Under the pieces are notes generated by a model. That model had not been told where the DNA came from. It saw only the letters and a list, made by a program, of their open reading frames with translations, and searched no databases. A program made the position numbers and the translations under genes. A stretch of DNA of 25,828 nucleotides from a virus. Below, piece by piece: positions 16,633 through 21,537 of the stretch (positions within the stretch are counted from its first letter, which is position 1; every line of letters begins with the position of its first letter). Location of the stretch: positions 1-25,828 of IMG/VR virus record IMGVR_UViG_3300028840_001914. One strand, written 5' to 3'.

Positions 16633-16833
16633 CTACTTTTTAAATAGACCTGTTAAATCAAATATTTCTGCAGATATATATGAAACAACCGCCGTAACGA
16701 TTGTAACAATCAGTTTACCAGTACCCTTAATCCATGATATTTCCACAGCATTTTGGTGGGTATCAGCAATTACATTATCTAATTTTTTATCCATTTTGTC
16801 AAGTTTTTTCTCTATACGATCTAGCTGGGTCAT
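16633..16833 (-). CDS. Holin-like or XhlA-like small membrane protein
   Basis: 66 residues. Residues 1-25 form a heptad helix (LDRIEKKLDKMDKKLDNV), a short linker follows, then one hydrophobic segment at about 38-58 (KLIVTIVTAVVSYISAEIF) and a short basic end (GLFKK). A coiled coil followed by a single C-terminal membrane span is the architecture of the XhlA family, which works with holins in some phages; class III holins look similar. It overlaps the 168-residue gene by four bases (ATGA). Call is by architecture only, and no endolysin is seen beside it. Confidence 0.6.
   Translation of the reverse strand: MTQLDRIEKKLDKMDKKLDNVIADTHQNAVEISWIKGTGKLIVTIVTAVVSYISAEIFDLTGLFKK
16774..16802 (-). 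promoter_or_regulatory. Possible internal promoter
   Basis: On the minus strand TTGACA (16802-16797), a 17-base spacer, and GATAAT (16779-16774). It lies inside the coding sequence of the 66-residue membrane protein, in Lys/Asp codons that favour such a match by chance. If used, it would boost the acidic protein, adaptor and nozzle genes. Confidence 0.3.
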
Positions 16834-17340: not shown

Positions 17341-18315
17341 TTACTCCCTACCGTATTCTCTTAATAGCCAATCTACGAATATTAAATCCCCACCACTATG
17401 TACCTGAAAAGGTCTATTATCAAAGCACCCAGGCTGTAGCCCCTTATCTGAATCATCTCGCTGAGTTGCCCACCCCTCACACCTGTCTGTTGTGTTTGGT
17501 AATCTATGTGCAGGATATATTCTATCGTCTATTTTAGGCCAAGGTCGGTCAATGCCAAACTTCCGGGCAGCAGCTACGTAGAGCAAATTCTCTGGATTTT
17601 CTGTGCTGACTTTCTCTAGCAGGTCAAGTTGACTGTCTGTTAGTCCATCATTGACTTCACTTAGCAATAGTAAATATAATACCAATAAGTGGTTTTGGAA
17701 ACCCCCCGGAGGATTTTTTTCCAAGACTATAGGGAAAAATCTGGCTGAATAATCTTTGCTGGACAGTTTATGTAACATCCTAGCTAACAGGCTAATATAA
17801 TTAGAGGACATTAGAGACGCTAAGCTGTTATCGGCTTCCTTTACCTTACCCATTATCCAACTGTTTTTACTGCCATAATTCCACAGATCCTGTAACATTT
17901 GGATATCTTTATTGTAATACGCTGCAAACATAACGCCCAAGATCATATCTCGGCTGATGCGAGACTTCGATTCTCCAGTCTCGTAACAGTCACTATATGC
18001 TAATGGCCTTCTATACCATTCCCCAGGATCCTTTTCGGCAGCACGTAAATCTACCGAAATGCCAGCAACACTAATAAGACTACTAAAAAGTAGACTATCA
18101 CAATGTTTGTAATCAATGAATCCATGATTATCTTGTACACCTTCGGTGCTACCTATGAGGGATCGGTAAGTCATCGCCCTGGCAGCAATCTGCTCTGGTA
18201 CACTTATTGTCCTTGGCTTTGTCTTCTTTCCGCACCCAGAAGTAATCCATAGATTTAGCAATAGCAAAAGCAGTATTCGCAGTATTTTCATATAATTTAT
18301 AGGAGCATACATCAC
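17341..18315 (-). CDS. Lipoprotein with large soluble domain
   Basis: 324 residues from GTG 18315; ATG 18312 is the next codon, and AAGGA stands 8-11 bases above both. An ATG at 18291 lacks a ribosome site. The N-terminus carries a signal peptide (KILRILLLLLLNLWI) and lipobox TSGC, so the mature protein would start with Cys and be lipid-anchored. The remaining ~295 residues are helical with conserved-looking elements: YKHCDSLLFSSLISVAG, GEWYRRPL, SRISRDMILGVMFAAYYN, and a C-terminal GWATQRDD/HSGGDLIFVDWLL. Four further cysteines may form disulphides in the periplasm. The enzymatic family is not recognised. A phage-encoded lipoprotein may act in superinfection exclusion, lysis or the cell surface. 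It overlaps the zinc-ribbon gene by 167 bases. Confidence 0.72.
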   Translation of the reverse strand: MMYAPINYMKILRILLLLLLNLWITSGCGKKTKPRTISVPEQIAARAMTYRSLIGSTEGVQDNHGFIDYKHCDSLLFSSLISVAGISVDLRAAEKDPGEWYRRPLAYSDCYETGESKSRISRDMILGVMFAAYYNKDIQMLQDLWNYGSKNSWIMGKVKEADNSLASLMSSNYISLLARMLHKLSSKDYSARFFPIVLEKNPPGGFQNHLLVLYLLLLSEVNDGLTDSQLDLLEKVSTENPENLLYVAAARKFGIDRPWPKIDDRIYPAHRLPNTTDRCEGWATQRDDSDKGLQPGCFDNRPFQVHSGGDLIFVDWLLREYGRE

Positions 18316-18382
18316 AGTGATATTCCTTATCGATTTTAGTAAATGTCTGAGTTTTTACACAGTTAGGGCAGTATAAGTTCAT
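18149..18382 (-). CDS. Small zinc-ribbon protein
   Basis: 77 residues. CPNC at positions 5-8 and CDVC at 23-26 form a CxxC-x14-CxxC zinc ribbon. The C-terminal half contains CTRADCC, a less usual cluster. The ATG forms TAATG with the stop of the 412-residue fibre gene, and GGAG lies eight bases upstream, so translation is well supported. About 55 of 77 codons overlap the start of the lipoprotein gene in a different frame. The ribbon itself (residues 1-30) is mostly upstream of the overlap, so the C-terminal part may be the one shaped by overprinting. Zinc ribbons often bind nucleic acid or protein; role unknown. Confidence 0.65.
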   Translation of the reverse strand: MNLYCPNCVKTQTFTKIDKEYHCDVCSYKLYENTANTAFAIAKSMDYFWVRKEDKAKDNKCTRADCCQGDDLPIPHR

Positions 18383-19620
18383 TAACTATTCTCCAGTGCG
18401 TCTACTTTAGCTGATAACTCTTGAATTGCCTTTACTAATATAGGCACAATAAGATGATAGGCAATGCCATCAGGATTGCCTTCACCGTCCAGTGCTACTA
18501 CTTCTGGAACAACAACATTTACTTCTTCAGCTATCATTCCAATAGTTTGATAATCACTATCGTTTTCTGTGTAGCTGACTGCCCGTAAGGCTTCAACAGT
18601 AGATAGTCCATAAGTTAAATCAACTATATCCTTTTTATACTTAAGGGAAGAACTATTCCTATGTAACCTGCCTCCATTACTAGTATCCCAAAGAATAGGA
18701 ACACCTACAGCACTATTCCTCATATTGGCAGCAAATATATCTCCACCAGAATCTACTTTAAGTAACTCGGCAGAACCTCCATTACTTTCTACTAAAAATG
18801 GTGTACCAGAAAGATCACTATCTAGTACATGCAGGATACCAGAAGGATTATCAGTACCAATGCCTACGTTACCTCCCTGCCTAATTGTAAAGTACTTATT
18901 ATTATTATTGACATTATCATCAATAAAAAAGAAATCCTGCCCACCGGTAGTACTGCCATCAATCCCTGCAAACCAATTAGCAGCGTCATTACCCATTTGA
19001 AGACTTACTCTTTGATTAGAACCTTGTGCTCTTATCTTTATAGGAGCAACAGAAGTACCTGAACCACTATCAGTATGTCTTACTGCTAAGTGGTTGGAGG
19101 AGCTTATAGCAGTCTCACCAATGCCTACTTTACCTGGCTGAGTTATTGTAAAAACATCAGCATTAGCATCCGTTCCCCAAGTAAGTCTTTGGTTGCTGGC
19201 AGTTGCATTGTTAATATGGTTCATAAAAAACCGAACAGCAGTACTATCATTAGTAACTCCAGTAAACGTTTTATCTCCTGCAAACGTCTGTGCTCCAGTT
19301 GACACTACACCTTGTTGAGTAGAGGATGCTAGTGAAGCAAACAGTCCAGCCTCAGTTGTAGCAAGTATACGTACTTGGCCAGTCCCACCTGTAAGTGAAG
19401 CCAGTCCATTTTCTAATATTTGTGTACTAGTTACAGTAACATAGTTACCGGAATCTAGCTGTTCCCATTCACCTCCGGGTAGTAATTCCCGAAGTACTAT
19501 AGTCTGTGTAGGGACTACTCCCAAGTTATGATCAGTATCTGTAAACCCTGAAGCAGTAATCGAACCACTATCATATGTTTTACTTACTGCTATATTTAAT
19601 GAATCTGATAACTTACCCAT
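18382..19620 (-). CDS. Fibre protein with S74 intramolecular chaperone (third in tandem)
   Basis: 412 residues. Residues 1-120 are a beta-rich unit unlike the other two fibres and include STGAQTFAGDKTFTG. Two GxVGIG repeats follow (near 165 and 252). The C-terminal 89 residues are an S74-type chaperone: SSLKYKKDIVDL at about 324, GMIAEEV at about 362, and VKAIQELSAKVDALENS forming the terminal helix. Ser324 and Lys329 match the self-cleaving Ser-Lys spacing (Ser, +5 Lys) of S74 domains. Such domains trimerise the fibre and are then cut off. The gene overlaps the 365-residue gene by eight bases (ATGGGTAA), with GAGGAG above it. It probably encodes a tail fibre or spike subunit for host recognition. 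Confidence 0.78.
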   Translation of the reverse strand: MGKLSDSLNIAVSKTYDSGSITASGFTDTDHNLGVVPTQTIVLRELLPGGEWEQLDSGNYVTVTSTQILENGLASLTGGTGQVRILATTEAGLFASLASSTQQGVVSTGAQTFAGDKTFTGVTNDSTAVRFFMNHINNATASNQRLTWGTDANADVFTITQPGKVGIGETAISSSNHLAVRHTDSGSGTSVAPIKIRAQGSNQRVSLQMGNDAANWFAGIDGSTTGGQDFFFIDDNVNNNNKYFTIRQGGNVGIGTDNPSGILHVLDSDLSGTPFLVESNGGSAELLKVDSGGDIFAANMRNSAVGVPILWDTSNGGRLHRNSSSLKYKKDIVDLTYGLSTVEALRAVSYTENDSDYQTIGMIAEEVNVVVPEVVALDGEGNPDGIAYHLIVPILVKAIQELSAKVDALENS

Positions 19621-20778
19621 TAACTTGCTCCTCTAGTTGATCTACTTTCGCTGATAACTCTTGAATTGCTTTAAATGTAATACCTAATGCAGCCCCTACA
19701 TCTACATGCCAAGTATTCTTACTTTCAGTATCTATATTTCCGTTTTCATCCCTAGGAGCAGAAATCATAGAAGGTATGTACTGAATCGCTTCTTGTGCTA
19801 AAAAGCCTGTAAACGTACCTCTACAATTTTTAATAAAACCCCCTAAATCTGTAGCCTCATTCCAAGTAAAGTCTACTAGTCTTAAAGAGTTAATACTATT
19901 TAAAGCATTTAACTGACTGTCTCTAATATTTTCTTTTAATCTATAATCAGAAGATACTTGTATTGCAGCATTACCGATATACATTGTCGTAGAGCCTGAA
20001 CCATTGGGCGAAGTCGCAAACTCATTATTTCCAGTCACTGCCGAAATATACATACTTGTACTAAAGTAACCCCTACCTTCTACATGTAATTTAGTATTTA
20101 TATTAGGACTACTAGTACCAATGCCTACATTACCTCCATCCGTAATAGTCATTCTAGGTGTAAATGTATTTGCAAATAGGTTAGAGTCAGTTGAACTACT
20201 ATTAGTACCGAACTCCCAATTACCGTTAACTGCTTGAATGGCAAATGAACGGTAGGTAGAACCTGATATGGCTTCTCCTATGGCAAAACCCGGAGCAGCA
20301 GCAGTATTATCAAACTGAAAAGAAGGAATTGTAGAAAGATCACTATCTATTGATAAAACATGAGGAGGATTACTAGTACCAATGCCTACCTCACCTCCAT
20401 CCTTGATGACCATTTTAGTGGAAGGAGCAGCATTATAAGTAGTACTAGTCTTAAACTCGAATCTACCTCCCTGACTTCCATCTCTCAAACCTACTAGGGT
20501 TACCCCATTAGTAGCACCACCGGCTATCCATCTAATAGCATTACCTTCATTAGTACTACCATTATTATTTTCTAATATTATAGTCTCTTTTACACCACCA
20601 AATAGTAGGTCTTTAATATGAAGTTTTTCAGAAGGATCACTTTCTCCAATGCCTACGTTACCTTCAAGAATGATATCTCCACCATCCTGACTCTTAATTA
20701 TTTTAGCCATTAGCTGTTCTCCAATGTTTCTATTCTTGATAGTAGTTCGTCATTCTTATCTGATAACTCTTGAATTGC
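18411..20778 (-). repeat. Identical 19-base island in three chaperone domains
   Basis: The plus-strand 19-mer ctgataactcttgaattgc occurs at 18411-18429, 19651-19669 and 20760-20778. It encodes AIQELS plus the first base of the next codon, at the end of each S74 chaperone. All six codons are identical among three otherwise diverged genes. Confidence 0.9.
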
Positions 20779-21537
20779 ATTTACTAGCATAGGTACTAAA
20801 TCTTTTGCTGTAAAAGTATTACAGTCAGCTAAGCCCAACTGTTCTCTCTGGCTAACAATATTTGGATCAACTAAAGCTACTTCCTGGGCAATAAACCCCG
20901 GATGAACCTTTCCCCCATCGTTCATATCGCTGTTGGTTTTCCAGGTAAAAGTGACTGGATTCAAAGAGTTAACTTCAGATAATCCTTTTGTGTAATTATG
21001 GATATTTTCTTTAAGTCTAGAATCAGAGGTACCTGCTATTATAATACCGTTTGCATCTGTAGCTAATGGGTCCGTAGAGGTAAGTTGATTTATGACAACT
21101 TTACTGTCACCTCTAACTTCAAACGTAGTCTGTGCAAATCCATTAGTACATACTAAACTATAATCACTAGATGTGACCCCTCCGGTACTGGCCCGAATTG
21201 CAGTACTACCTCCACCAGGACCATTTACCTGTAATTTGGCACCAGGAATACTAATACCAATGCCTACGTTACCGGAGGGAATTATATTTAATGCCGGAGA
21301 ATTATTATTAAGTAATGAAAGAGTGTTATTATTAAACTCAAGACCTGCATATGTATTACTTCCAGAGTTTCCATTAGAAAGGAAAAGGTTGGCAGGGTTA
21401 CCGGCCTGACTAGAAATCATTACCTCTGTTCTACCCGAAGACTCTACCCATAATTCTGTCTCTGCCCTACTAGATAGTCCACTATCTCCGTTTTTTATGT
21501 GTACGTTGTTCTCAGGACTACTAGTACCAATGCCTAC
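18857..21537 (-). repeat. Seven identical 11-base islands encoding VGIG
   Basis: The plus-strand 11-mer ccaatgcctac starts at 18857, 19118, 20118, 20379, 20646, 21257 and 21527, spread over three fibre genes (two, three and two copies). It encodes the VGIG core of every GxVGIG repeat in the window, always with the same codons (GTA GGC ATT GG). Copies at 20118, 20379 and 21527 share a longer core including actagta upstream. Confidence 0.9.
19613..20710 (-). CDS. Fibre protein with S74 intramolecular chaperone (second in tandem)
   Basis: 365 residues. It starts MAKIIKSQDGGDIILEGNVG, so it lacks a separate N-terminal attachment domain and begins almost directly with a GxVGIG repeat. Three such repeats occur (near 16, 108 and 198). 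The last 112 residues are an S74 chaperone: SDYRLKENI at about 254, VDFTWNEA, GFLAQEA, and KAIQELSAKVDQLEEQ as terminal helix. Ser254 and Lys259 keep the catalytic spacing. The gene is coupled to the 1087-residue fibre by TAATG with GGAG upstream. Without an attachment domain it may bind another fibre, act as a distal tip, or be a recombined cassette. Confidence 0.78.
   Translation of the reverse strand: MAKIIKSQDGGDIILEGNVGIGESDPSEKLHIKDLLFGGVKETIILENNNGSTNEGNAIRWIAGGATNGVTLVGLRDGSQGGRFEFKTSTTYNAAPSTKMVIKDGGEVGIGTSNPPHVLSIDSDLSTIPSFQFDNTAAAPGFAIGEAISGSTYRSFAIQAVNGNWEFGTNSSSTDSNLFANTFTPRMTITDGGNVGIGTSSPNINTKLHVEGRGYFSTSMYISAVTGNNEFATSPNGSGSTTMYIGNAAIQVSSDYRLKENIRDSQLNALNSINSLRLVDFTWNEATDLGGFIKNCRGTFTGFLAQEAIQYIPSMISAPRDENGNIDTESKNTWHVDVGAALGITFKAIQELSAKVDQLEEQVNG

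Follow-up and report, generated by a model that had tools for sequence, protein, structure and literature searches.

The window analysed here, that is, the whole stretch of 25,828 bases (virus record G000), covers part of the genome of an uncultured tailed phage, and the late genes in it, among them capsid and three tail fibres, lie on the minus strand. Contig L006 (sample 3300017963) overlaps the window and extends upstream with portal, scaffold and a terminase fragment, and contig 3300017963_002818 is identical to the window (100% identity) over the region of overlap. Two of the three tail fibres were compared with the S74 chaperone, and both matched it. Behind the third fibre gene, a small zinc-ribbon ORF runs out of frame into a lipoprotein gene, with the following features:

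17341–18315, minus strand: lipoprotein gene, encoding 324 aa with the GTG start and 316 aa with ATG 18291; intact ORF with homologues, a conserved phage family with an all-alpha domain
18149–18382, minus strand: zinc-ribbon ORF, 77 aa, MNLYCPNC-x14-CDVC; intact, ATG at 18382 and stop at 18149
18149–18315, minus strand: stretch read in both frames, 167 nt (18149–18291, 143 nt, with the later start); overlap length mod 3 = 2
18232–18291, minus strand: predicted signal peptide from the alternative ATG 18291 to the lipobox Cys (MKILRILLLLLLNLWITSGC), TSGC at 18243–18232; from sequence and alignment with lipobox-bearing relatives
18305–18370, minus strand: zinc-ribbon CxxC knuckles, two in number, at residues 5–8 and 23–26; from sequence
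18324–18328, minus strand: AAGGA, a Shine-Dalgarno-like motif 8 nt ahead of GTG 18315 and 11 nt ahead of ATG 18312; from sequence
18380–18384, minus strand: TAATG, in which the fibre-gene stop (TAA) overlaps the zinc-ribbon ATG; from sequence
18382–19620, minus strand: upstream tail-fibre gene, 412 aa, with a Peptidase_S74 chaperone C-terminus (PF13884, E 4.6e-7)

The third fibre gene encodes 412 aa in the window and 449 aa in the otherwise identical contig 3300017963_002818 (L103), the window copy being without 37 codons near 19250, a strain variation or an assembly difference. Towards their 3′ ends (18380–18447, 19618–19672 and 20756–20796), the three neighbouring fibre genes are 82–88% identical in DNA, which suggests that these tail ends were duplicated in tandem or homogenised by gene conversion. 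A short distance downstream of the lipoprotein gene, a 66-aa holin- or XhlA-like protein is encoded at 16633–16833 (phrog_1193, phrog_689), and no endolysin was recognised among the window genes searched.

The two intact ORFs reported by the initial annotation were both confirmed, together with the TAATG, a GGAG at 18394–18391 (8 nt upstream of the zinc-ribbon start), the AAGGA and the ITSGC lipobox. The knuckles of the shorter protein, CPNC-x14-CDVC, have the spacing that is classical for a zinc ribbon, its tail holds three further cysteines, and the translation contains no hydrophobic segment of transmembrane length. A PHROG profile, phrog_4875, matches it at E 0.002, and this profile also finds matches in 14/14 control genomes and hence is a generic zinc-ribbon profile; Pfam gave matches below cut-off only. 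The single-sequence fold model (pLDDT 49 overall, 37–51 in the tail) is uninformative at such depth. The protein is likely to be a small accessory factor that binds nucleic acid or protein.

The lipoprotein frame offers three in-frame starts, GTG 18315, ATG 18312 and ATG 18291, and the AAGGA that would serve as its ribosome-binding site lies inside the zinc-ribbon gene. Following GTG 18315 the frame reads MMYAPINYMKILRILLLLLLNLWITSGC, with a hydrophobic h-region and ITSGC, and thus carries the signal peptide and the lipobox ending in Cys of a bacterial-type lipoprotein, as read from the sequence and with an atypical Thr at −3; about 297 residues of mature protein follow the Cys. From ATG 18291 (MKILR..., with the Cys as residue 20) it aligns with the signal peptides and starts of relatives, e.g., MRLLYFFGLLMALTLVSGGC of L104. 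The evidence on the start is divided: the relatives favour ATG 18291, whereas the Shine-Dalgarno sequence favours GTG 18315 or ATG 18312. Depending on this choice, the overlap amounts to 167 nt (GTG 18315), 164 nt (ATG 18312) or 143 nt (ATG 18291). The earlier figure of about 55 of the 77 zinc-ribbon codons being shared therefore holds as an upper limit, for GTG 18315; with ATG 18291 it falls to about 47 codons, all of them behind the zinc-binding core.

Homologues of the two proteins were sought separately, as the initial annotation had proposed, with opposite outcomes. Direct searches returned only the 100%-identical contig, and a search with the pattern RC[DE]xWxTQRD gave, besides the same virus, a single contig (L011), which is unrelated. 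Relatives of the lipoprotein were reached by way of the portal protein, which led to five diverged relatives and, through their alignment, to 80 loci. Lipoprotein homologues were present in 10/50 portal-related records (E 5e-37 to 1e-7), and a profile built from them detected 27 IMG/VR loci, namely the same virus and 26 others, the latter including near-duplicates of one another. The homologues are 23–33% identical over the alignment, the closest available reaching about 38% at most in the best segment, and the family is marked by invariant residues (D73, L76, R102, S118, I120, S121, D123, M124, G127, H209) and by the motifs HSGGD, ISRDM and CDxLLF. Thirteen relatives have a signal peptide and lipobox of their own (e.g., LTSC, LVAC, ITSC); the remainder, several of them without a lipobox, start near the conserved domain or bear other N-termini. 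Tblastn searches of 50,697 phage records gave no relatives for the lipoprotein, for the capsid or nozzle protein or for three family members, and two insignificant matches for the adaptor. The family likewise has no match in the PHROGs, Pfam, PDB sequences or cultured phages searched, and contig scans with the lipoprotein or a four-member profile yielded no cellular relatives. Judged by these alignments, the lipoprotein is a member of a conserved, widespread phage family, real and old.

For the zinc ribbon, tblastn found no relative in the 50,697 phage records; among weak matches (E 2–9), the two inspected come from Streptomyces phage Teutsch and Cronobacter phage ES2 and correspond to other PHROGs. 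It had no match in the 50 portal-related records and was absent from 34/35 related records (partly the same as the 50), where the sole match was the identical contig, a positive control. In the databases and records searched, the zinc ribbon thus occurs only in this virus, including one identical contig, so that the sole second copy is 100% identical and no diverged copy was found. Both genes are nevertheless likely to be real, as originally claimed, on independent grounds: the lipoprotein through its 26 homologous loci, the zinc ribbon through its motif, its start context and the generic profile.

Nearly all family genes lie directly behind a long, usually fibre-like gene (upstream ORFs being classed by appearance). 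In 20/23 measured loci, the junction between the upstream ORF and the family gene ranges from a gap of 65 nt to an overlap of 13 nt, 13 nt being the largest overlap with an upstream gene among the relatives; at several loci the junction is TAATG-like. None of the 26 homologous loci has a zinc ribbon there, in the measured ones no CxxC ORF precedes or overlaps the family gene, and neither the overlap nor the pair of genes is kept. At one locus (L129:2085-2336), the slot before the family gene is occupied by an 83-aa ORF with a lipobox-like motif. The stop of this ORF overlaps the family gene's start codon. The plainest reading of these arrangements is that small accessory genes can settle in the slot ahead of the lipoprotein gene, behind its upstream neighbour, the zinc ribbon probably being one of them. 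The initial annotation had named a shortened or broken zinc-ribbon frame beside a conserved lipoprotein as evidence against overprinting; the relatives go further, as the ORF is wholly absent from them, which does not disprove its translation in this phage. With the lipoprotein conserved in the relatives and the zinc ribbon missing from them, the overlap is, on the loci compared, lineage-specific.

We therefore favour, with a probability of roughly 0.7, the explanation that two independent late genes of one operon came to overlap by local insertion, the zinc ribbon running into the older lipoprotein gene. A small accessory zinc-ribbon gene would have entered behind the tail-fibre gene, just ahead of the lipoprotein gene. 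Its 3′ end would then have read on in another frame across the codons of the signal peptide, as far as a stop provided by chance, insertion presumably preceding run-on. The zinc ribbon would be started by termination-reinitiation at the TAATG and the lipoprotein by its own AAGGA or by coupling, while the overprinted tail may be passive, with function confined to residues 1–30. Parsimony favours a lineage-specific gene gain beside an older lipoprotein gene, given that none of the relatives found has the zinc ribbon; the latter might also be older and have been lost elsewhere, the relatives compared being distant ones (about 38% identity at most). As the zinc ribbon is found only in this virus and the lipoprotein family is widespread, the overlap is better seen as an ordinary local accident than as a paired system. 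Long same-strand overlaps, most of which arise when the upstream gene is extended at its 3′ end, are common in prokaryotes and most frequent in this phase (PMC3887535), and 61% of dsDNA virus reference genomes contain one or more overlaps longer than 50 nt (PMC7017920).

It is conceivable, though we consider it unlikely, that the overlap has been selected, either because the full-length zinc-ribbon tail is functional or because the overlap tunes lipoprotein translation by coupling, and the position of the lipoprotein's ribbon-internal ribosome-binding site would be in keeping with this. In a post hoc chance test, in which the lipoprotein amino acids were fixed and synonymous codons resampled, the zinc-ribbon frame stayed open this far in only 0.5% (from GTG) or 0.9% (from ATG 18291) of the resamples, more openness than expected (P 0.005–0.009), and no other window gene keeps the equivalent frame open for as many as 46 codons. 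In the relatives, this frame continues for 1–48 codons past the gene start, which indicates that leucine-rich signal peptides themselves favour an open frame. For the part of the zinc ribbon that is overlapped, the codon score falls in the middle of the synonymous-resample null (P 0.47), so that no codon-level signal is seen in the tail, and the gene pair is missing in all relatives. Extending the query from residues 1–30 to residues 1–50 raises the phrog_4875 match from 14.5 to 21.1 bits, a weak additional score in favour of selection; five shuffled tails gave 15.8–18.7 bits, leaving the real tail just 2.4 bits above the best shuffle. The profile was rejected as proof of the tail, given this 2.4-bit margin and a shuffled tail that reached 20 bits with another PHROG, and its matches in all 14 control genomes further reduce its weight. 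Openness and profile score mildly favour a kept tail, a weak hint from sequence that the tail could be functional. Somewhat more doubtful still is a regulated late-gene pair in this lineage, in which the cysteine-bearing tail would be functional and zinc-ribbon translation would control the lipoprotein.

It is improbable, too, that the zinc-ribbon ORF is untranslated, only the lipoprotein being made and the 5′ part serving as a leader. The lack of a homologue outside this virus would fit such a leader, as would a codon score of −4.28, which lies below that of the neighbouring genes (mean −3.82, SD 0.14, 25-codon stretches), but the lipoprotein scores low as well (−4.08), and two CxxC knuckles at classical spacing, the TAATG, the GGAG 8 nt upstream and the match to the generic zinc-ribbon profile argue for a translated gene. 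A spanin-like pair, with the lipoprotein as an o-spanin whose gene begins within that of its partner, like Rz1 in Rz, is very improbable and was rejected on architecture: the start inside another frame and the nearby holin-like gene (16633–16833) recall such pairs, but the zinc-ribbon partner is without a transmembrane segment, no inner-membrane partner with an N-terminal TMD and periplasmic helices is present, several family members are without a lipobox, and the lipoprotein is not small, with about 297 mature residues in a confident globular all-alpha model as opposed to the 40 residues of mature Rz1 (PMC6139136).

As to what the lipoprotein does, the family structure model is confident (pLDDT 91, pTM 0.87) and all-alpha. 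A fold search of BFVD retrieved the uncharacterised phage protein A0A6J5PFQ2 (E 2.6e-16, 26% identity), which is like the window lipoprotein in fold and length. Neither Pfam nor PDB contains a sequence match; in the PDB fold search, GH76 alpha/alpha-barrel glycosidases were among the top matches, at values below significance (E 0.3–1.1, TM 0.33–0.40), and the modelled fold may thus weakly resemble these enzymes. The lipoprotein is likely a membrane-anchored all-alpha protein that acts on the envelope or on surface glycans, its gene lying near fibre genes, and it could possibly take part in exclusion or release of virions. For exclusion, an analogy is offered by T5 Llp, a superinfection-exclusion lipoprotein of a phage whose gene lies directly downstream of the receptor-binding gene, a likeness of place to the window family (PMC9586334). 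Llp is small, whereas members of the window family have about 300 aa and several are without a lipobox; Llp is taken as an analogue in possible working and not as a relative.

The overlap is real and ordinary, a lineage-specific case in which an orphan zinc ribbon runs into a conserved phage lipoprotein, and it adds another lineage-specific gene insertion in a compact phage operon. The signal-peptide region, whose leucine-rich codons keep the alternative frame open, offers a natural example of how a neighbour's tail can be absorbed. The lipoprotein family, whose genes follow structural-looking ones in 26 other contigs, is the more interesting by-product and a candidate for functional study. 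Compared with Rz/Rz1 spanins, there is one shared trait, in that in overlapped spanins, too, the shared DNA encodes the o-spanin signal sequence and the lipoprotein starts inside the other frame (PMC6139136). All other architecture tested differs, as the partner here is a zinc ribbon, the lipoprotein is large and globular and the overlap is not conserved (PMC6139136), and the idea of a meaningful unit like Rz/Rz1 is not supported, as none of the 26 homologous loci has the zinc ribbon. The closest counterpart is instead the class of overlaps described by Fonseca et al. (2013; PMC3887535), with which the window overlap shares that it is partial and unidirectional, has a length mod 3 of 2 (phase 1, where long overlaps prevail) and involves an older, conserved downstream gene; it differs from this class in nothing fundamental and, with 143–167 nt, is a long member of it.
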